64,000 nucleotides of DNA, from assembly GCF_037975245.1 (NCBI RefSeq), contig NC_092574.1, positions 18,693,713 through 18,757,712 on the forward strand, read 5' to 3'. The position numbers and the translations under genes are program-made. How positions within the stretch are numbered: position 1 is the first letter of the stretch; each line of letters starts with the position of its first letter. This DNA comes from Apostichopus japonicus. Its lineage: Eukaryota; Echinodermata; Holothuroidea; Aspidochirotida; Stichopodidae. Below, in pieces: positions 1,349-43,030 of this stretch. Under the pieces are notes generated by a model that was given only the letters and a program-made list of their open reading frames with translations, was not told the origin of the DNA and made no database searches.

Positions 1349-2629
1349 TCACAGTTTCGTATCTTGCGTCTCCAACACTTCAGCCGAACTCCTAGTATTA
1401 TCATTCCAGTCGTTTGTACCTGCTGAGGTGTTAACAATTGGCGTAGATGAGACAGGACGCCCTCCTTGTTGTCCGTGGGTGTCCCTTTGACATGGGACAA
1501 TGCGGTAGTAGATGTCATGTACCGTCTCCTTGAAGGCTTGTCTGTATTTACTGCTAAATGAAACGTAAACGACTGGATTAATCAACGTATTGATATATGA
1601 GAGCGTGCGTGCTATCCACACAACTGTCCGGTACGTGAAACTATTGGTGGATATGAGAGTGTTCCCTGCCAGTCCGTTGAATAAGGTGCAGACGTTGAGA
1701 ATTTCGAAAGGAGCAAGTAATGCGAAAAAGGACAATCCATTTATGACCAACATCTTGATAGTTTGATTAATTGTTCGACTTTCTTCCTTCTTCCTCGATG
1801 TCGCTTTGGCTAATGAATCAAAGGATTGCACCCTCTCCGCAGATTCTTTCAGACCTTGTAATATATCCACGTATAAGTACATATTCATTGCCATCGCTAA
1901 GAAAAAGGGCAGGGTTTGGAGGATGTGTGTGAAATTCTCATACGATTTACTGACGGAACTGCAAATGTGGACCACGCGAGGGTACTGAAGGAATTGTTCT
2001 CCTTCTGGCCAAATTATGCAGATTTCTTTCAATATGGCAAAACTCGGTATGAACGACCCTGCCAGTAAAAACGATATTAACCAAGAGAATGTGATCATTT
2101 TGAAACATTTCTTCCGATTATGGAATCTATTTTTCCCAACCAGATGAGGATATCTAACAGCTTGCCGTCTTTCCCAGGCGACCAGAGTTATGAAACACAG
2201 AGATGCCAGATAAGTCACTGAACTACTGACGAAGAAAATGACGCATCCGAGTGAACCAAGACAAGAGTCGTCGATGGTAACCTGAGGAGAAGCGATAAAC
2301 TTCCAAAGCTTGTGTCCGATGACGAAGACCAGAAATAAGATATCTGCAATTGCCAAACTGGACAAATATGCGTTAGTAACATTTTTCATGGTGTCAATTT
2401 TCCTAACGACTAATAAAAACAGGGCGTTGTCTATCACTCCAATAACAAGAATCAATGGTAAGATTATACTTATATAAGCTATAAAAATACTTCGGTATTG
2501 TAAAGACGTGGCTACGGCTTCTGTAGATGCATTTATCGAATCTGTTCCGTTGCAAAATTCTTCGTCAAGAGTCGTAGCCACATTTGTGAAGCTCTCTGTT
2601 CCATACAGATCTGCCATTTTATCATGCAA
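1349..2629 (-). CDS. Class A (rhodopsin-like) GPCR, peptide-receptor-like, intronless
   Basis: A single-exon frame of 426 residues predicts a seven-helix plasma-membrane receptor that signals through G proteins. The N-terminus has two N-glycosylation sequons (N27, N33). Family landmarks seen: N68 in helix 1, LAIAD (92-96) in helix 2, C123 at the top of helix 3 for the disulfide, W183 in helix 4, P307 in helix 6 and NPVVY (351-355) in helix 7. Oddities: the DRY motif reads E153-R154-R155, and the usual helix-6 toggle tryptophan before P307 is leucine (L305). The third loop has a basic stretch (279-285) and the tail is Ser/Thr-rich. Overall layout resembles the neuropeptide/TRH-receptor group, but the ligand cannot be told. 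M1 is taken as the start; M5 is an alternative. Intronless GPCRs are common in marine invertebrate expansions, so a retrocopy origin is possible. Confidence 0.88.
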   Translation of the reverse strand: MHDKMADLYGTESFTNVATTLDEEFCNGTDSINASTEAVATSLQYRSIFIAYISIILPLILVIGVIDNALFLLVVRKIDTMKNVTNAYLSSLAIADILFLVFVIGHKLWKFIASPQVTIDDSCLGSLGCVIFFVSSSVTYLASLCFITLVAWERRQAVRYPHLVGKNRFHNRKKCFKMITFSWLISFLLAGSFIPSFAILKEICIIWPEGEQFLQYPRVVHICSSVSKSYENFTHILQTLPFFLAMAMNMYLYVDILQGLKESAERVQSFDSLAKATSRKKEESRTINQTIKMLVINGLSFFALLAPFEILNVCTLFNGLAGNTLISTNSFTYRTVVWIARTLSYINTLINPVVYVSFSSKYRQAFKETVHDIYYRIVPCQRDTHGQQGGRPVSSTPIVNTSAGTNDWNDNTRSSAEVLETQDTKL

Positions 2630-3535
2630 AGATTTGTTGCACTTTTCAAATTATCCACGCGTAATCATGTATAGAGCGTCAGAAGTTGGAAAAGTTTGCG
2701 TAAGATAATTCTGTTTCGCGTATCTGTATAATGATGATGCCGGTAAAGGTGTTCAACTTTAGCCTAATTAAAAAACTAGAAGAGAAATGAATGCTGCCAT
2801 ATAAAGATACATATGTTAAATTGAGGTATATTATGATACCGGTGAAGTTCAGGTTTTAACAGTAAATTATCCCATACAAAGTTCTTCCTTTTCTTGCGTT
2901 TTTATGGTAACATGGAATTCAGACTCTTCTCACGTCTGCTTCGACAAACTAATGATAAGTTAGTTAAGCAGAAGTAAATTATATGTTAGCAGGTAGAAAT
3001 ATCACAGTATCGCTATGGAGGTATTGACACAGTAAAGAGATATCAACAGTACTGAGATTGTCCCGACATCTCAATTCAGTCCGACGGTCTCTAAATTTAC
3101 TATAAATCCTCTTCGCTGTCGTGATGTCTTCTATTAAGTGATTAATCTGTTGAAGTGGAGGATCAAATCTGACTGGTAGTTTGTACAACTAATGTCTGGT
3201 ACTTGACACCACATTACTTAATGAAATCAAGAACTGATTTAACTTTATAGTTCAGGAATTCAACCACAGATGCGCTCAAGTGATTTGTTTGACAGAGTCA
3301 AGTCGTTTAACTTCCCGTAAAGTGATGGCTGCATTCCCGTATAAATCTTTTTTCCTCTCTCCTTTTTCTTTTTTCTTCTTCTACTCCTCGTCCTCCTAAT
3401 TGGCCTCTCCACCGAAATGTGGCTCGTTTTTTCTTGAGTTAAACTCAGACAGCACTTTATCCAAAACGATTGCTCCGTGAAGATGTTTCTTGAAAACAAG
3501 AGGTTCCTGAGAAACAAAACGTCAAATATAAACAT
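2630..3535. other. Intergenic upstream of the GPCR, no gene seen
   Basis: This is presumably the GPCR promoter and 5' UTR side, since the receptor reads leftward. A polypyrimidine tract lies at about 3348-3400. Short frames on the minus strand here have no recognisable domain. Confidence 0.4.
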
Positions 3536-5108
3536 TATTTGATTTGATTTGATTTATTTGATTTTCCACAGATAATAAATATATACATGTGGAGGGAAGT
3601 CCTCTAAAAAGCCAATTCAGGCTTAACAAGTTAAAGGACTCCCAAGAAAGAAAGAAAAAATACATATATACATAAATTAAAATATAATTAATGTCTTAAT
3701 AAGGAATAATTAATAACATACAATGTAAACGATGTATCAATACTGAGAAATTACTTTTTTTTTTTAAGCGTTTTCCTAAATGTTACTTTAGATGGTTTAG
3801 ATTTTATAGTAGCAGTTAGAGAATTCCATGTCCTCATAGCACGATTCTTTAAACTTAACGTACCGAATGTTGTATTACATAAGTTGTGGTGTGCTTGACC
3901 GGCACTTCTAGAGCGGTGACTATGTATGGCGCTGTTAATAGTAAAGAAGTCATGAAAGGCTGCAGGAAGTAAGCCATTCCAAGCCTTGTAAAAGAATGTG
4001 GCTTCATTCAGCCTAACAATATCGCTAAATTTTAATAAGTTGAGCAATTTGAAAAGTGAGCTGGTGTGTTCACGATATTCAGAATGAGTTATATGACGAA
4101 TGACTTTCTTTTGTAGGATTTCAAGAGGGTGAAGATAAACATTATGGGTGCCAGACCAGATTATAGAGCAATATGAAAAATGGGGGGGGGGGGAATTAAT
4201 GTTTGGTAAAGCATTCTAAGAATATTCTGAGGAAAGTAGTGTTTCAACTTAGAAATGATACCAACATTTTTCGCCACAGTGTTTGCAATATTTGATATAT
4301 GTTCACACCAAGTAAGTTTACTATCAATATATACTCGGAGAAATCTAATACTATGTACATGCTTGATAGGCTTACCATCCATTAAAATGTCTTTTTTCCA
4401 AGAAAAAGATTTACTTTTATTGAAAACAATGTAGCTGGTTTTATCAAGATTAAGTGATAGCTTATTAGTTGCAAACCAGTCGTAAAATTGATTCAACTCC
4501 ATGGATACTATGTCATGTAAAGTATTCAAATTATTGGATTCGAAAAATATACTAGTGTCATCTGCAAATAAAATAGTTTTTGCAATATTAGAGATATGAC
4601 AGATGTCTTTGATATATATCATGGAAAGAAGTGGTCCTAATATTGAACCTTGAGGAACACCACAGCGGATTTCAGCATAGTCAGACATGGTGTTCTTAAA
4701 CGAAGATATACTGTAAACGTTTCGATACGTAGCTGTCCATCCAGTTAAGGGTTGGTCCTCTAATGCCGTAGAATGATAACTTGTATAGGAGAATAGTATA
4801 CGATGGTCAATGGTATCAAATGCTTTTGATAGGTCTAAGAATTTACCAATACATGTTTTCTTTTTATCAAGGCTATCGTATAATTTATCAATGGCATCTG
4901 CCGGGGCAAGCTCAGTTGAGTGACTAGGGCGGAATCCATATTGTTCATTGCAAAGTATGTCATTAGCATCAAGAAAATTTATGATTCTGTTGGACATGAG
5001 GCGTTCGAGAATTTTGGAAAAGCATGATAGAATAGAGATTGGTCGGTAGTTCTCGTAGATATTGGATTCTCCTTTCTTAAAAATGGGTAAGACCGTAGCT
5101 TTTTTTTA
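3536..5108 (-). mobile_element. Truncated non-LTR retrotransposon (LINE, CR1/L2/Jockey-like) with broken reverse transcriptase
   Basis: This is the 3' part of a LINE. The minus strand encodes reverse transcriptase starting inside the first fingers motif (LPIFKKG, about 5090) and running through NYRPIS, GFRPSHST, DLSKAFDTIDH, GVPQGSILGP and the catalytic FADD box (about 4565) to a C-terminal segment with MRTWNSL (about 3820). Homology stops abruptly near 5108, as expected from 5' truncation. The 3' end is a TTTGATTTGA-type tail at 3541-3562. The frame is broken at least three times: two compensating shifts bracket about 4710-4800, where the in-frame text is not RT-like but a neighbouring frame reads LSFYGIRGPTLNWM, and a third lies at the G run 4182-4193, after which PHFSYCSIIWSG continues in another frame. 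It is non-functional. Confidence 0.9.
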
Positions 5109-6987
5109 AAAATAAGTTTCTAAGTGAATTTCTAAATTAAAATTATTAAATTTCCAAGTGATGAATCGTTTCAGCGATCATATTTTCATTATTATCCATT
5201 TTTTACATATCTCTCCGATTGATCAAGATAATAACGGAGATCAGTAATATTTAATGTCCTTTGAAGAACTTATATCGTTGAAGTCGAAATTGTTGAATCA
5301 TTGCAATGATTATGATATGAAGTGTCTCGTTTCAAATCATGCGAATATACATGACGCTTGCTCGTCGTCGTACAGAAGTATTATGATTAATTTATTGCCC
5401 CTCCGCTACCCACCTCTTCACCCTCTCCCTCCCACCCTCGGCAAAACGATACGATAAACTGTATAAGTACAATATTTTCTGCCGTACGAAAACACCCATG
5501 AAGGGAGCTCTTCGGTATGTAGTTTCTCTCTCATGATACTCAAGAACGGAAGTGGGTGATTGGGGATTATATTATTATTATTATTATTATCATCATTATT
5601 ATTATTATTATTATTTATGCAGTCTAAAGTTACTACAGAGACTAAGGTATAACAACTTACGACCGCAGATTAGTATTATGATAGCGCGTTCAGTCCTTGA
5701 AATGTCTATAGGTAACGTGGGCTGATAGTACAAACATTGTTAATTAAAAAAATGATTATGGATGACCAGTCATTTGTGCCACTTAGTTCATTGTTATGTT
5801 TTTATCATTAAATTTGATCCGTGGATCATAATGATCTGTATTTTGAAACTTTTCAATCATGAAGCTCATTTTCTGTTTAGAACAACATTACGCGGTACTT
5901 AGTCTACGTCAGCGTTTCAATCAAGCAATTCTTAGTTGCATGAGTATGGCAATATTAATTTTCTACTACATAATATATAATATTCTACTGCAAACATTAC
6001 CACTCAATTAAGCAGCAGAGTAAGGTTTTCATAGAGTGATGTATTGGGCAGTGGTATATAGAGTGGTACATTGGAGTGGAGGTTGCCTCAATATATATCA
6101 GTTCAGATCTTTATAATTATATGACGTTGTATATGTTGTTATATATATTACTGTAAAAATGAAATATCGTTACCAATATAGGTAAACAATATAAAATGTT
6201 CGTATTTGAGAAAAAGCGAGTGTTCAGTTTCTTGGGCTTATATCTATGTGACAACTATGTGTGAAAGTCATGGAACCGTTACACCACAGAGTGGCATATG
6301 ACCAGGAAGTATATATCACGGATATCCACACTCACCTCTTAGAAAGGAGAAGGAGAATATGAGCAACAAGGAGATAAATTCCAAAGATTCACATTAGCTC
6401 CTCATTCTGTCGTCCTTGAAATCGCTGTTAAGGAAGAGCAAGGAATAATTTGAAATTGCTTATAGGTCTTTCACATTTTATCTCACAAAACGCACAAAAT
6501 ACAACTATAGCGAAACATTCGTACATTATGCATGTGCTCCTGTTTTGACAATCGATACTTTTTTTAAGCGTTTAAAATGGCTCTGGTGTGAATTTTAAAT
6601 CTGATTCCTGCTATGAAGCTTTAAAATTCGAGCTGATTGAAACGTTGTTCCATAATAAATTGATTATGATCTCGCAACCGTATATGTAAGTGGGTCATCT
6701 TATTCTGAATCTGTTTTGAAGATCGCCGTATACTCACTGTACTATCAAATGCTCACATTCGCCATGGCAAGAACATATATAAAGAAAAAGAATATTTATC
6801 ACTAGTGTTGGCAGGTTCACTAAATCTCATTCAAAGCATCGATTTTTTGGGGTGAGGTGGGGTGGAGAGGGGAGAGTAATCAATTTAATGAAAGACGTTC
6901 AATTGACGATGTTATTTCCTATAGTGAGAAAACATGTTATGTCACAAATTTTAAGGATATAAATTACATTTCTTACGATGATCATTA
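5109..6987. other. Gene-free stretch with ATT microsatellite
   Basis: AT-rich DNA. An (ATT)n tract with a CATCATT interruption sits at about 5571-5615. No coding or RNA gene was recognised; the only frame of note, at 5254-5457, is low-complexity and looks fortuitous. Confidence 0.4.
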
Positions 6988-7228
<241 letters not shown>

Positions 7229-7773: not shown

Positions 7774-9720
7774 AAGGCGCATTTACACGACACGACAAAA
7801 TCGTCTGCGAATTTTTTTTAGCCGACTTGTGTACGATTGTGTCGGTACGTGTGAGTGGCTTCTCCTCTTGTCGTGAGGAATTATCATTCACGAAAAAATC
7901 GCCCACAATTTCTATTAAAATCGCGCACGACTTGGACGCAGCGTGTGAAAAGAATCTTGCTCAACATCCGTCGCGCGCGACAATATTTTGAGTTGTCGTG
8001 CAAAGTTGAGCACATTTCAACTTTTGTCACGATTTTCACCGGATGGTTTAGCGACCAGTGACAACAAAATGGCTGAATTTAGTGACTCAAGGACGTGAAG
8101 AAATGTGCGATAAAGACGATGGGCTGAAGGGAGGTATAATTTCGTAACTATTATTAAGACTACTTGAGACCCAGATAAAAGGATAAAAAAAAAATGGTAT
8201 ATAATATACTTGACTATTCCCACAAACTTAGAGAAAGATTTGTGCGTGGATGGTCACTGAAGTGATGCAATTGGTCCTATATATGTTTATCGTATAGCAC
8301 ATAATGCATACTATTATGCAATGTTTATGAGTACTGTCTAGCCTAGGCCTAACTTGCTTTAATACCAAACAAATTGTTGTTGAGTTTTGTTGGTTGAATT
8401 AATATAATGTTTTTGAAGTTCTTCTGTGTCATCGGCTTGTGAGTAGTCAGTGTTTGGGAAGTGTGCGTAATTTCAATGAAAAGTAATTTAAGATAACCTC
8501 GTTGTCATTAGAAGGCCTAAAAATGATACGGATACCTTGAAAAATCATAATGAATCGGATTAACGATATTTTGCATTATGGTAAAACCAGACAAAGCGAC
8601 ATGGTCGATAACCACATCCTTTATATCACAGTGTGTCGCTTTTGCATGCATGAACTGATACGCTAAGTTATGGTAATTTTTCTGAGGCTTCGACCGTCAA
8701 AATTTAGAGCAATATTGACCGTTATCAACATCTTCAAGGTAGTATAAGTTGACTTCATTTTAGTTAAACTATTGACAGGACAGTGTTATATTAAATAATG
8801 TTCATGAAACATAATGATCAGCTTCATCATTAATTTCATCATTAATTATGACAGTGAGCTAATCAAAACAATCTGTATTAAAAAGTCTGTCTGTCTCCAC
8901 TTCTCTCTCTTTCTCTCTCCGACTGAACACTTTGTCACTGTGAATGATGATCTCAATTATATTGCGTTGAAAAACTTAACTTCTTTTTCTCCTTTTTTAT
9001 TCCTTGTGTTCATTCATGCACGAGGCTGTGTATGTGACTTGAAGGAAATAATTTCAAATGAACATGGTTGTCTAAAACAGTGTGAAACCTTGTGAATACA
9101 TTGTCTTTAAATGTAATAAAAGGATAAATGTTCTCATAAAAGTGTAAGGAACCCCTATGCCTATTTGCTTTCTGGCTTACACTATTTAACCCTCTGCCAG
9201 ATTTTCTGATGCATCTATCACATGTAGCAGATAGTGAAATATTGGATTGGGTTAAAGAGATAACATGATTTAATGCTATATTATGCAATATCAGTTACAA
9301 TTGCTCATTAGGACTTGAAGATGTATTATTTCCTCTCTCTCTCCCCAGTATTTTTGTTTTTAGTGAGTTGGTTAAATTTCAATATTTTATTCCGGATATC
9401 TCGAAAGATGCCTTGTTTCTGGCACCTGTATCTCATACCCTCAACCATATAGCGTCAAACGCACGTATTTATCGCATACGACTGTCGTGTCGTGTCGTGT
9501 AAATGGCAAGTTATTCAAATGGAACAAATTGCTAACTGTAGTGTGATAAATCGTGCGCGACTCAAGACAACATTTACACGCTGCGATTCCAGACGTAGTG
9601 TAAACATATGCTCTACTTTGCCCGTCAAGTTGCTCACTGTTCAGTTTCTTCGAAAAGTCCCATACACACCCCACGAATTTGTCGCTCACGACACTTTTGT
9701 ATAAATAGATTCATTATGAT
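7774..9720. repeat. Possible old DNA element with ACACGACACGAC inverted ends
   Basis: Near 7778 the plus strand reads CATTTACACGACACGAC. Near 9508 the complement of GTCGTGTCGTGTAAATG occurs, giving a 17-bp inverted match. TTA triplets flank both sides (7772-7774 and about 9512-9514). Further GCGCACGA / CGTGTAAA motifs recur inverted at about 7915-7985 and 9550-9605. No transposase was recognised between them. Boundaries are uncertain and this could be two unrelated elements. Confidence 0.3.
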
Positions 9721-16727: not shown

Positions 16728-16818
16728 TCTCCTCTCCTCTCCTCTCCTCTCCTCTCCTCTCCTCTCCTCTCCTCTCCTCTCCTCTCCTCTCCTCTCCTCT
16801 CCTCTCCTCTCCTCTCCT
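16728..16818. repeat. Pentanucleotide microsatellite (TCTCC)n
   Basis: About 18 nearly perfect CTCCT units form a strong polypyrimidine/polypurine tract. Confidence 0.95.
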
Positions 16819-38667: not shown

Positions 38668-38945
38668 GTGGCTATTCTTACGACGAGTCGTAACAATTAC
38701 TTATAAACTATTCTTACGACAAAGGCAAATTCAAGCGAAGTAAAGTAAATAAAGCAACTGCGCATGTAGTAGGGGTAACCCTAACCCTAAACATAACCCT
38801 AAACCTCAATCCTAACCCTTACCCTAACCCTAACCGGAAATTATTGTTTCTCCTCGTCGTAAAAATAGTACTCCTGGTCATGAAAATAGCAACTGCGCAT
38901 GCGTAGTAGGGAATTATTCTTACGACTAGTCGTAACAATAGCCAC
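38668..38945. mobile_element. Small inverted-repeat element around a telomere-like tract
   Basis: Ends are about 32-bp imperfect inverted repeats beginning GTGGCTATT[C/G]TTACGAC (left at 38668, right ending at 38945), about 5 mismatches. Each end itself contains a palindrome TTACGAC-NA-GTCGTAA. A 9-bp direct repeat CAAATAAAA lies 4 bp outside each end (38655-38663 and 38950-38958), possibly a target duplication. Internally, GCAACTGCGCATG...TAGTAGGG is directly repeated at about 38754 and 38888 on either side of the telomere-like tract. Confidence 0.6.
38775..38835. repeat. Interstitial telomere-like repeat (CCCTAA)n, degenerate
   Basis: About ten CCCTAA or near-CCCTAA units with variants (AAACAT, CTCAAT, CCTTAC) fit the TTAGGG telomere repeat used by most animals. 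The tract lies wholly inside the inverted-repeat element at 38668-38945, so it may have travelled with that element and not mark an old chromosome end. Confidence 0.85.
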
Positions 38946-39888
38946 TTTGCAAATAAAATGGGTTATACTTAGTTAAGAACTTACAAATAAAATAAAATAT
39001 ATAAATGCGCTTCATATGAACTGTTTACATGCTCACTATGATGGCTAAATTAAAAATCAATGGCATATGAAAAATTCTCGGCCATGGTACGCCCCTGCAA
39101 AAGTGTAGCTGGGTGTGTCATTGGAGAGCCCTACTATACGATCAAGTAGTGTCACTCTGCACTGTAAATTATGTATTATATATCCAATCTTTTGATTACA
39201 TTTCGCGGAACTGAAACAAGTTATGAAAGGGGCCACTCGGCGAATTTACCCGGTAGATATAATTACTTTATAAGTGATATTCTTATGATTTACGAGGGGT
39301 AATTTAGCTGAAAGCAAATTAAAGATGAAAAAGTTCGAAAATTGTACTGTTAGGAAAACATTAGATTGTGTTCTATACCTTTTCGTGCCTGTTTGCCCTG
39401 CAATAACGTAGGCCAGTTGAACTTTGGCTGTCACCTGAGATCACGTAACTATGGAACGCCAAAAGGACCACAGGTGGCGCTGCTATCCTAAATAGGATGT
39501 GCTACTTTTGCGGTAACAAATTTAAACGGAAATATTACTCACCAGTCTAGCACAGCAAAAGTAACTCCGGTCCACTGGGTCGGTCCGTTGCGAAATAATT
39601 TAATAGCAAATACAGGATCCATCCATAATTAAAGTTATGTTTAGATCCTTCACAAAATACGAAAAGTTAATGTAACGAAATGAAGGAATGCGGGTCCAAT
39701 AAAATATATCTATAGCGGTCAGACATGAACGTTTATCAAGTTGATAAGAATTATCCGATCGAAAGTAAATATAAGACGATTAATGTAGGCGATTAACGTC
39801 GTTGGTGGCTCGTCGTGTTGAGCGGTCGAAGTCGAAAGTCGAAGTGGTGTAAGTTCGAACTAGCGATACCACAAGGGTAATTGAGGGC

Positions 39889-40335
39889 GCTAACAGTTGA
39901 CGGAAACAGTAGCGGTGTCAAATTACGCCGCTACACTACCCTAAACTCGAGGTGCTACTACCCTAAGCAGGAGGTGCTACTACTCTAAACAGGAGAGGTG
40001 CTACTACTCCTAAGAGACGATGCTGCTGTAACAGCTGCCGCTACTACTCTAAATAGGCGATGCTACTATGCTACTACTACAGGCGGCGATGCTACAGTAA
40101 ATTAGTAGCGCTACTACCCTAAACGGAAGGTGCTAATTATGGAACACTAAAGGACCACAGGTGGCATTGCTACCATACACTGGTGGTGCTATACCCTAAA
40201 TAGGCGGTGCTACTACCCTAAACAGGTGCTGATACTACCCTTAACAAGAGGTGCTACTACCCTAAACAAGAGGTGCTACTACCCTAAACAGGCGATGCTA
40301 CTACCCTAAACAGGTGTTATTATCATAAACAGGGG
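39889..40335. repeat. Minisatellite arm, about 20-22-bp unit GGTGCTACTACCCTAAACAG
   Basis: About 15 to 18 units, variably diverged, with the consensus (A/C)GGTGCTACTACCCTAAACAG. They are interrupted near 40136-40175 by a copy of the element's terminal sequence (GGAACACTAAAGGACCACAG). The last units (40240-40315) are the most regular. Confidence 0.85.
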
Positions 40336-41399
40336 TCTATCTATTTGTAACTACGAACCGTTTCCAAAGTAAACCGCAGTGAAGGATATTGCCATTACAA
40401 ATCTGCTGGTTATTTCTTTTGCGGATACGTACACCTGCCATTCGGCCGCATTAAAGAGATACAATGTTTCAAACAAAGGTTAATTTTCAGCCGCTTAACA
40501 TATTTGAGAAAAGTATTAATGGATACAATTTTCTGGACCGAAGTCAAAATGATATCATGAGAAACAAAAGTCAAGGCTCGTTCAACCCGTCTGCCAGTAC
40601 AATCTTAAGTAAAACTAGATGCAATACTCTTCATGCCAAATTTTACCTGCCCAAGTTAGAGAACATCAACGTACTTGTATGCTATGTGAAAATCCTTTTA
40701 TTGATTGTGTGCTGCATTCAAAATTTACTGGTGAAAGCTAAATCGACCGGGAAGCTGTTGCTAGTTGCCGACCATTCCTGGACAGGCTAACAGAATAACA
40801 TGTATAGAATTTGTGTTAGGTATTTCTATAATTATTTTTGTTTGTTCGCTCATCATGAGAATATGTAACTCTGCAAGAGTGACAGGAGTGAGATGTAAAA
40901 TACCTTTATTTTCCGTGTATAGTTTAGAAAAGAAAGAAGATATAAAATACGACAGGGTGTCGCACCCCCAGAAGTAGATCCAAAAAGTGAAGCTGGCTCT
41001 TTGTCCCCCGCCCCCCCCCCCCCTACGCCTAATTTTGCCAGGTAAGGGTGATATCACAAGTACATCTAGTTTCGCCATCTGCTTGTGTTCACGGAATATG
41101 GGATCGAAACATCCTGAAATGAAATTGCATTTTACACTCATTGGTATTTTTTGCACGGTAACAAGTTTATATTATTCGAACAGCCGCTGGGAGGAGTAGG
41201 AACTGGGGTAGAAGTAATGGGGTTAAGTGCCCCCTTAATAAATTGGTTAAAATACAAGCCTTAACAGAGAATGAAGGAAATTCATTCCCAACTCTTCGCA
41301 ATTTCAGAGTAATCCCCTTTTCTGCATTTTTTTTTTGTGCTTCAAAATGGCTATGAAAGACAAGCACTGTCCGAAAATGCTATACCCCTTCCACGCACT

Positions 41400-42430
41400 T
41401 ATAGGCTGGATGAAAGTATCATTATGATCCCCTTCTAGGGGAACCATTATAACGACCTGACGATGATCACACAGTCTCGATGCAAGGGGACTGGGTTGAG
41501 AGCGGATCAGTCGTTCGGTTGTTTGGTTTTCGTGCCCAGGTTTTTTCCTGGGTGACTTTTCTTAAAAAGTATCACACAGTCAGTCTTGATGTAAGATGAA
41601 TGGGATTAAGAGCGGATCAGTCGGTTCGCAGTTTGGCTATTATTGGCCATGTTTCTTCCTGAGTGGCTTTTCTTACAAATCTAGCATTATGTTCTCCTTC
41701 TAGGGGAACCGTGATACACACCTGACATCGATAACCACACGGTCACAGTCTTGATGCAAGGGAACTGGGGTTGAGAGTGGATCAGTCGGTAGTTAGTTGT
41801 TTGGTGCCCAGGTTCTTTCCTGGGTGACTTTTCTTAAAAATCGAATGCTTTTTCGGCCTTCTGGCTAAGATCATGTGTAGAATCTGTGTTTACGGGAATC
41901 TGCCCAATTTGCATAAATGTCACGTCAAACGTGTACCCTAGCATTAGTTGAATTTTACTTGTTTCTCACGGTTTGTAGTAGTATTTGTTTTGTGCCTCAC
42001 GATATCATTTAACAATAAATGACGTGTATACCCCGCTTCAAAGATGCGACGAACGTAGAATGAATTGTGATATGACGTAAAGTTAGAAAAGAACCTATCA
42101 CGAAATAGCAATCGTTTTTTAATGAGTTAAACATGTCTTATGACGGATAACTTGTTATTTCTAAAGGTATCCTATTTAAAATTCTAACATTTATCGTAAA
42201 TGTAATTATAAACCATCTCAAATATTTGAAACAACCATCTTGAGGAAGATTTTACTTACATTCAGCTATTTTTGTGGTACAATATACTGTAACGTGTTAC
42301 GTGACAATACAGGCTGGATTAAAGTACTGGGTGACTGTTCTTAGCAAGCATCACGTGTAGCATCATGTTCTCCTTCTGTTCGCCTTCGTGATACACACCT
42401 GACGATGATCACATAGTCACAGTCCCGATA
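41400..42430. repeat. Diverged tandem units ending in snRNA-like text
   Basis: Recurring phrases include TTCTCCTTCTAGGGGAACC (about 41430, 41690 and, more diverged, 42367), ACACACCTGACGATGATCACA, GATGCAAGGG(G/A)ACTGGG, GAGAGCGGATCAGTCG and TTCCTGGGTGACTTTTCTTA (about 41546, 41818). They indicate at least three partial copies of a unit of about 150-280 bp. Confidence 0.7.
41840..41892 (+). pseudogene. RNU2: U2 snRNA 5' fragment (pseudogene)
   Basis: Reads ATCG then TTTCGGCCTTCTGGCTAAGA at about 41850-41869, followed by TCATGTGTAGAATCTGTGTT. This matches the first 45 or so bases of U2 spliceosomal RNA, including the U6-pairing segment and the branch-point region GTGTAG(T)ATCTGT. After about 41892 the text no longer matches U2 (no Sm site or downstream stems), so it is a truncated copy, not a working gene. 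It lies within the foldback-like element. Confidence 0.75.
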
Positions 42431-42935
42431 CTGGTGGCCCCTTGTATGCTTCAGTACACTATGGTGTACCTCAGCACGCTGTGGACTGGCGGCCCCCTGT
42501 ATGATTCAGTACACTGTGGTGTACCTCAGCACGCTGTGGACTGGCGCCCCCTGTATGATTCAGTACACTGTGGTGTACCTCAGGACGCTGTGGACTGGCG
42601 GCCCCCTGTGTGCTCCAGTACACTGTGGTGTACCTCAGGACGCTGTGGACTGGCGGCCCCCTGTATGCTTCAATACACTGTGGTGTTCCTCAGGACGCTG
42701 TGGACTGGCGGCCCTCTGTATGCTTCAGTACACTGTGGTGTACCTCAGCACGCTGTGATCAGTACACTGTGGTGTACCTCACCACACTGTGGTGTACCTT
42801 AGCACCCCTTAGTGCGCCGTGGACAGGGCGCCCTGTATGCCTCAGTACACCAGGGTGCACCTTAGCGCGCCGTGGACAGGTGGCCCCCTTTATGCCTCAG
42901 TACACCGGGGTGCACCTTAGCGCGCTGTGGACAGG
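42431..42935. repeat. Tandem repeat, 55-bp unit, about nine copies
   Basis: The unit CTGTGGACTGGCGGCCCCCT...CAGTACACTGTGGTGTACCT recurs with GTGGACT at 42481, 42536, 42590, 42645 and 42700 (54-55 bp spacing). It becomes more diverged and partly shortened from about 42745 to 42935. Each unit carries the near-palindrome GTACACTGTGGTGTAC. Open frames across it are repeat artefacts. Confidence 0.92.
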
Positions 42936-43030
42936 TGGGTAGGGTAGTAGCACCTCCTGTTTAGGGTAGTAGCACCTGCTGTTTAGAGTAGTAGCGCCAC
43001 CTGTAGTCCTTTTGGCGTTTCATACGTAAC

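Follow-up and report, generated by a model that had tools for sequence, protein, structure and literature searches.

A foldback-like transposon family in Apostichopus japonicus with IS3EU-type ends and candidate PF24764 transposase genes in the same genome

Introduction

Foldback elements are classed by their shape. FB of Drosophila and TU of sea urchin have long inverted arms built of short tandem repeats, and their target site duplications (TSDs) measure 9 bp and 8 bp, respectively. Here we describe an element of ~3.6 kb that has such long inverted tandem-repeat arms, and differs from both in its ends and in a TSD of 6 bp. It occupies positions 39450-43024 of the window, by which we mean the whole stretch of 64,000 nucleotides of Apostichopus japonicus DNA that was analysed (C14:18693713-18757712). 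Two further systems of Drosophila resemble it in build. Galileo, of the P superfamily, has long, internally repetitive terminal inverted repeats (TIRs), and the available parts of two papers describe the tandem repeats of its TIR as secondary transposase-binding sites (PMC3688188) and give it a 7-bp TSD (PMC3573991), which, together with a P-type THAP transposase, sets it apart from an element with 6 bp. Tetris, a foldback of Drosophila virilis, is likewise non-autonomous, with tandem repeats in long TIRs and a non-coding middle, but according to the accessible sections of its description it has a TSD of 8-10 bp, was assigned to Mutator by its authors and never had its enzyme found (PMC4079207).

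The closest match in ends and TSD is offered by the IS3EU superfamily. Fungal IS3EU families have a 6-bp TSD, a TIR of more than 30 bp and TAYGG..CCRTA ends (excerpts of PMC12730594), and the termini of complete IS3EU families are invariably TA..TA, the TSD usually measuring 6 bp (excerpts of PMC10045372). All of these features recur in our element, and a gene family with the PF24764 integrase core, present in the same genome, has the element's outer TIR. We therefore consider it very probable that the element belongs to the DNA transposons of IS3EU/GingerRoot type, as a non-autonomous form whose arms are foldback-like and which would be moved in trans by three-exon PF24764 transposases. It would be an unusual IS3EU member, with repeat-filled foldback arms: the window copy differs from the type in carrying no gene and in having foldback-like 22-bp arrays in both arms, and its candidate autonomous partners measure 23-41 kb between TIRs and are known from coordinates alone.

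Ends, target site duplications and family

The two ends of the window copy are inverted repeats, with 33 of 36 bases identical between 39450-39485 and the reverse complement of 42989-43024, and local alignment of the inverted ends covers 57 bp at 86% identity. A perfect CGTAAC stands on both sides of the element (39444-39449 and 43025-43030), 6 being the only length from 3 to 10 that gives a full match. The inverted ends of ~36 bp and the CGTAAC duplication that the original prediction had read here are thus borne out.

The element is a member of a multi-copy family. Searching the genome (671.6 Mb, 35 contigs) with a 32-bp TIR pattern and up to 3 mismatches gave 120 matches, against 0 for the reversed pattern that served as control; 100 of the 120 were listed, including all with at most 2 mismatches. 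TSDs were compared at 15 independent loci with two clean outer ends each, namely the window copy and 14 of 20 regions around TIR matches. Six regions were dropped for want of an end match (L021) or of opposite ends (L025-L028), or as ambiguous (L024, where one candidate end pair matches at 5/6 bases and its right end falls inside a minisatellite), and L030 was left out of the count, since it duplicates the insertion at L014, down to nearly identical flanks. A perfect 6-bp TSD lies directly outside TATGG..CCATA at 11 of the 15 loci, while L017 and L022 agree at 5/6 bases, L020 at 4/6 and L016 at 2/6; no length from 3 to 10 other than 6 gave a full match at any of them. Positions 1-5 read TATGG at 97-100% over the 30 ends compared, and the terminal inverted alignments across the 15 loci span 48 to 464 bp, the window TIR measuring 36 bp. 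The original prediction had staked itself on a consistent 6-bp duplication among copies, which is what was found. Its remark that such a length is unusual for hAT, Mariner or Harbinger is overtaken: the 6 bp are real, and they have a known home in IS3EU, as far as the accessible text of PMC12730594 and PMC10045372 goes.

These comparisons also bear on two other explanations. Tandem repeat makes up much of the length of the element, which could suggest a chance assembly of satellites and no element at all; this is refuted by the TSD comparison, given the consistency of TSDs and ends over 15 loci and the control counts of 0, and we regard it as practically negligible. A hAT6 element, that is, a hAT element with a 6-bp TSD, would fit the TSD length, and hAT families with 6-bp TSDs have been published (PMC12730594, in the part available); however, the TATGG..CCATA ends obey the IS3EU rule and behind the shared outer TIR, in searches none of which was directed at hAT, lie genes of the PF24764 integrase-core kind, which leaves a hAT6 origin highly improbable.

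Copies L015 and L016 are 99.8% identical and occupy different sites, which, judging from the sequences, would be a sign of recent activity. When 20 further single-end regions were re-examined with laxer end matching (at most 5 of 19 bases different), 8 had opposite ends. Perfect 6-bp duplications were found at L030 (TGAACA) and at a 98-bp pair in L042 (TATGAT), and L032, L038, L040, L041, L044 and L046 have laxer opposite ends without a perfect 6-bp duplication. The L042 pair, a pair of family ends at 9240-9338, is perhaps a minimal derivative. L014 and L030 lie 2.4 Mb apart on C7, in opposite orientation, and have one insertion and nearly identical flanks in common, that is, they form an inverted segmental duplication; L014 bears a reverse-transcriptase open reading frame (ORF; RVT_1), and L030 a near-identical one by eye.

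Arms and interior

The window copy is made up of the following features.

39444-39449, no strand: left TSD, CGTAAC (sequence read)
39450-39485, plus strand: left TIR, beginning TATGG (33/36 identical to the right end)
39506-39929, no strand: separate repeat of ~424 bp within the left arm, outside the element family (genome matches; exact end by eye)
39935-40314, plus strand: left arm, 22-bp minisatellite array (TRF rows 39935-40009 and 40170-40314; unit matches)
40138-40191, plus strand: degenerate second TIR copy in the left arm (element positions 689-742 against 1-55, 78%)
40315-42429, no strand: non-coding core, common to subfamily B copies (best other copies 85-91%; Pfam negative for the ORFs scanned)
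41417-41840, plus strand: two-copy direct repeat, 41417-41568 and 41682-41840 (80% over 162 bp)
41845-42027, plus strand: degenerate U2 snRNA-like stretch (Rfam RF00004, 38.8 bits)
42430-42932, plus strand: 55-bp tandem array, 9 copies (tandem-repeat scan)
42940-43004, minus strand: right arm, 22-bp minisatellite in inverted orientation (tandem-repeat scan, unit matches)
42989-43024, minus strand: right TIR (inverted alignment to the left end)
43025-43030, no strand: right TSD, CGTAAC (sequence read)

The foldback-like architecture and the arm minisatellites in opposite orientation were correctly recognised in the original prediction, and oppositely oriented tandem units flank both sides in all 16 copies examined, one side of L019 consisting of a single unit. 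This is what one would expect of a classical foldback of the FB/TU/Galileo/Tetris line, with a Mutator-like or P-like transposase, and fragments of the THAP domain, as found in P-type transposases, are present in L009 and L010. Against such an origin, the TSD of 6 bp is neither the 9 or 8 bp of FB and TU nor the 7-8 bp that go with a THAP transposase in Galileo and P elements, and it differs from the 7 bp of Galileo and the 8-10 bp of Tetris in what is accessible of their descriptions. The THAP fragments were rejected as a P-type clue, as by eye they belong to other insertions, each bordered by its own duplication, of TTAA or of 8 bp (AAACAGGA). We consider a classical foldback very unlikely. 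The insertion in L009 (~2440-4033, 1.6 kb) combines a THAP fragment with AGACCAA.. inverted ends and a duplicated TTAA and appears Kolobok-like; that in the left arm of L010 (~249-2686, 2.4 kb), with CAGAGCCTTATATAG.. inverted ends, the 8-bp duplication and a THAP fragment, appears hAT-like.

A nested copy separates the constant from the variable part of the ends. In L013, an element of 1,644 bp (4156-5799) interrupts a larger copy within its right arm and has its own 6-bp TSD, AGTAGC, taken from the repeat of that arm. The nested element has the outer 24 bp, TATGGAACGCCAAAAGGACCACAG, in common with the family, whereas its arms (547 bp inverted, 87%) are built of a different, 21-bp unit, and the outer ~24 bp are therefore the constant part. 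At least two families may be alike only in their outer 24 bp, with inverted arms made from 21-bp and 22-bp units, the motif CTACTAC being found in both. An alignment of the two units has a score that 1.8% of 500 shuffles reach, and of the bases of the 22-bp unit, 19 of 22 agree with the inner half of the TIR. Conservation of the bases GCTACTAC stands at 98-100% over 138 units from 15 loci, which is only suggestive because units were chosen by similarity and arrays homogenise; 195 pairs of neighbouring motifs are spaced 22 bp apart, against 15 pairs for the second most frequent distance.

As to the interior, the element has 15 ORFs of at least 60 aa, the longest of 136 aa, and a Pfam scan of 10 of the 15 at E 0.1 gave no match, so that a transposase was not recognised, in line with the original prediction. 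That prediction had also placed a 55-bp array and U2-like repeats in the core: the array stands, and the U2 likeness is real, but it amounts to one weak, degenerate copy and not to repeats. The stretch matches the Rfam U2 model at 38.8 bits (E 1.6e-5) without reaching the gathering score of 46, at which a scan of the window had 0 matches, and its fold has no extra stability over shuffles (z 0.66). The separate repeat in the left arm is matched on its own (element positions ~57-486, 84-91%) at no fewer than 12 listed, dispersed places in the genome, and most of the listed matches have borders near positions 57 and 486; at the borders of the repeat in the window a possible GCTAC duplication was seen. 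Elsewhere in the window, ATCATC and TCTCC form long arrays and TAACCC a short, telomere-like one (6981-7228, 16728-16818, 38776-38835).

Candidate transposase genes

Candidates for the mobilising enzyme are genes with PF24764 (rva_4, an integrase core), which is presumably the IS3EU transposase. PF24764 has 150 matches in the genome (150 of 224 candidates scored), which group into 88 clusters; a 178-aa piece of a two-exon copy (L052) scores 257.5 bits, and P0001 had no match in NCBIfam or PDB. A three-exon group of 13 loci was sorted by eye from the split of the matches over the profile, a list drawn up after the first listing of outer TIRs had indicated 2 loci and before the last exact-TIR listings. 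All three pieces are present at 11 of the 13; at the C4 locus the first piece is weak and 5 kb off, and the C10 locus is without one.

Patterns of the outer 17 bp of the TIR gave 950 matches (at most 1 mismatch, with a different continuation), 114 exact and 89 exact matches, of which 100, 100 and 89 were listed, and their controls gave 0. Among the listed places of the first pattern, neighbouring sites less than 30 kb apart form inward-facing pairs in 25 of 25 cases; with two listings joined and a limit of 40 kb there were 41 inward pairs, 5 same-direction neighbours and 0 outward ones. Of the 13 three-exon genes, 5 have an inward exact TIR upstream, at a distance of 1.9-5.2 kb from the first exon (C6 twice, C8, C17 twice; 176 exact sites listed). 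This compares with 0 of 26 other PF24764 loci and, over 20,000 random placements, with no more than 2 of 13. The C22 (22.6 Mb) and C23 genes lay beyond the first two TIR listings and were therefore used as a later check, in which one continuation gave an exact TIR for the C23 gene, 2.3 kb upstream, and none for the C22 gene. Taken together, the 6 kb upstream contain an exact, inward-facing 17-bp TIR in 6 of the 88 PF24764 clusters, every one of them a three-exon locus. Only one more cluster lies near a listed TIR, namely a lone match resembling a first exon (C6:12599551), next to the right-hand TIRs of one of these six. The original prediction had left the mobilising enzyme without a candidate; with the IS3EU features and the PF24764 family behind the outer TIR, it now has one.

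Inverted right-hand TIRs were found at 4 loci, at 23.5 (C6), 32.6 (C6), 25.1 (C8) and 40.7 kb (C23) from the left ones, the 32.6-kb locus having a second right-hand TIR 0.4 kb further on. The candidate large elements, from TIR to TIR and by coordinates only, are as follows.

C6:17696204-17719724
C6:12566398-12599043
C8:15146972-15172105
C23:7083954-7124671

These spans may include nested insertions. On C8, three same-direction exact TIRs lie exactly 5,264 bp apart (15172088, 15177352, 15182616), as if the right end of a large element were tandemly triplicated. C17:15-25 Mb holds a dense cluster of PF24764 matches, many of them broken, and two inward-facing TIRs at C14:17185598-17203698, which lie 18.1 kb apart and have no PF24764 match among the 150 of 224 candidates scored, possibly delimit a large element with other content.

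Three other routes to a partner were rejected. The IS3 profile NF033516 led to a piece from a 383-aa group that, on a reading of the ORF only, looks like a Ty3/gypsy-type integrase. The family-A core was considered as part of an autonomous element, and lies near a PF24764 gene, among the candidates scored, only at a disrupted locus on C5; the DNA left of this locus has one weak match elsewhere, away from PF24764 genes. L051, the 3' part of a PF24764 gene with two exons, did not extend to an element end.

Discussion

We propose that an IS3-like DDE transposase encoded elsewhere, in the three-exon PF24764 genes of the large elements, binds the shared TATGGAACGCCAAAAGG ends and would excise the short copy by cut and paste; insertion at a staggered 6-bp target would then produce the 6-bp TSD. 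By analogy with Galileo (PMC3688188, in its available part), the arms could supply secondary transposase-binding sites.

Several observations weigh against this assignment. The link between the PF24764 genes and the element family consists of the outer 17 bp of the TIR only, and the large elements were placed by coordinates alone. An exact upstream TIR is missing from the lists for 7 of the 13 three-exon genes, among them the C22 gene of the later check, for which one continuation was searched, and diverged ends would escape such lists; the further three-exon-like locus at C17:23516658-23522319, outside the 13, has none of the listed TIRs upstream. Near the ends matching the 32-bp pattern (100 of 120 matches listed), no PF24764 cluster was found except on C5, 20 kb from two ends, and on C6, 21 kb from one, and the family core was found near PF24764 genes at no more than one disrupted C5 locus, with 40 of 829 and 40 of 631 candidates scored. 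Finally, L016 and L020 have no convincing TSD; for L016, with its near-identity to L015, this fits a later rearrangement.

Such gaps could point to an orphan family, whose own transposase was lost or is another protein and which shares the outer 17 bp with PF24764 elements by common descent only, and indeed, within the matches listed, ends that fit the 32-bp pattern were not seen to enclose a PF24764 gene. However, copies 99.8% identical at different sites imply a recent supply of enzyme, and the nested L013 element keeps its outer 24 bp while the arms change, which makes an orphan family unlikely in our view, and we retain the IS3EU/GingerRoot assignment.

A more tentative idea, which we rate as possible and rather doubtful, is that one line of IS3EU transposases, residing in very large elements (23-41 kb between TIRs), repeatedly spawned foldback derivatives, whose arms would be helically phased arrays, two turns per unit, of secondary transposase-binding sites. 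If this were true, the foldback architecture would have arisen repeatedly in adaptation to the enzyme and would not mark a lineage.

In the open-licence literature, as far as its texts were available, we found no link between IS3EU and foldback elements, the co-mention being a foldback in a cited title and IS3EU in a table. A search for foldback transposons together with echinoderms found none, and for IS3EU with echinoderms the titles, in the records available, contained no foldback. The family may already stand in Repbase or Dfam. What the present analysis adds is that, by way of its ends and TSD, a foldback shape is connected with the IS3EU superfamily and with specific candidate transposase genes of the same genome. 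Tests can thereby be directed at the enzyme that moves such elements and at the question whether their arms are binding-site arrays.

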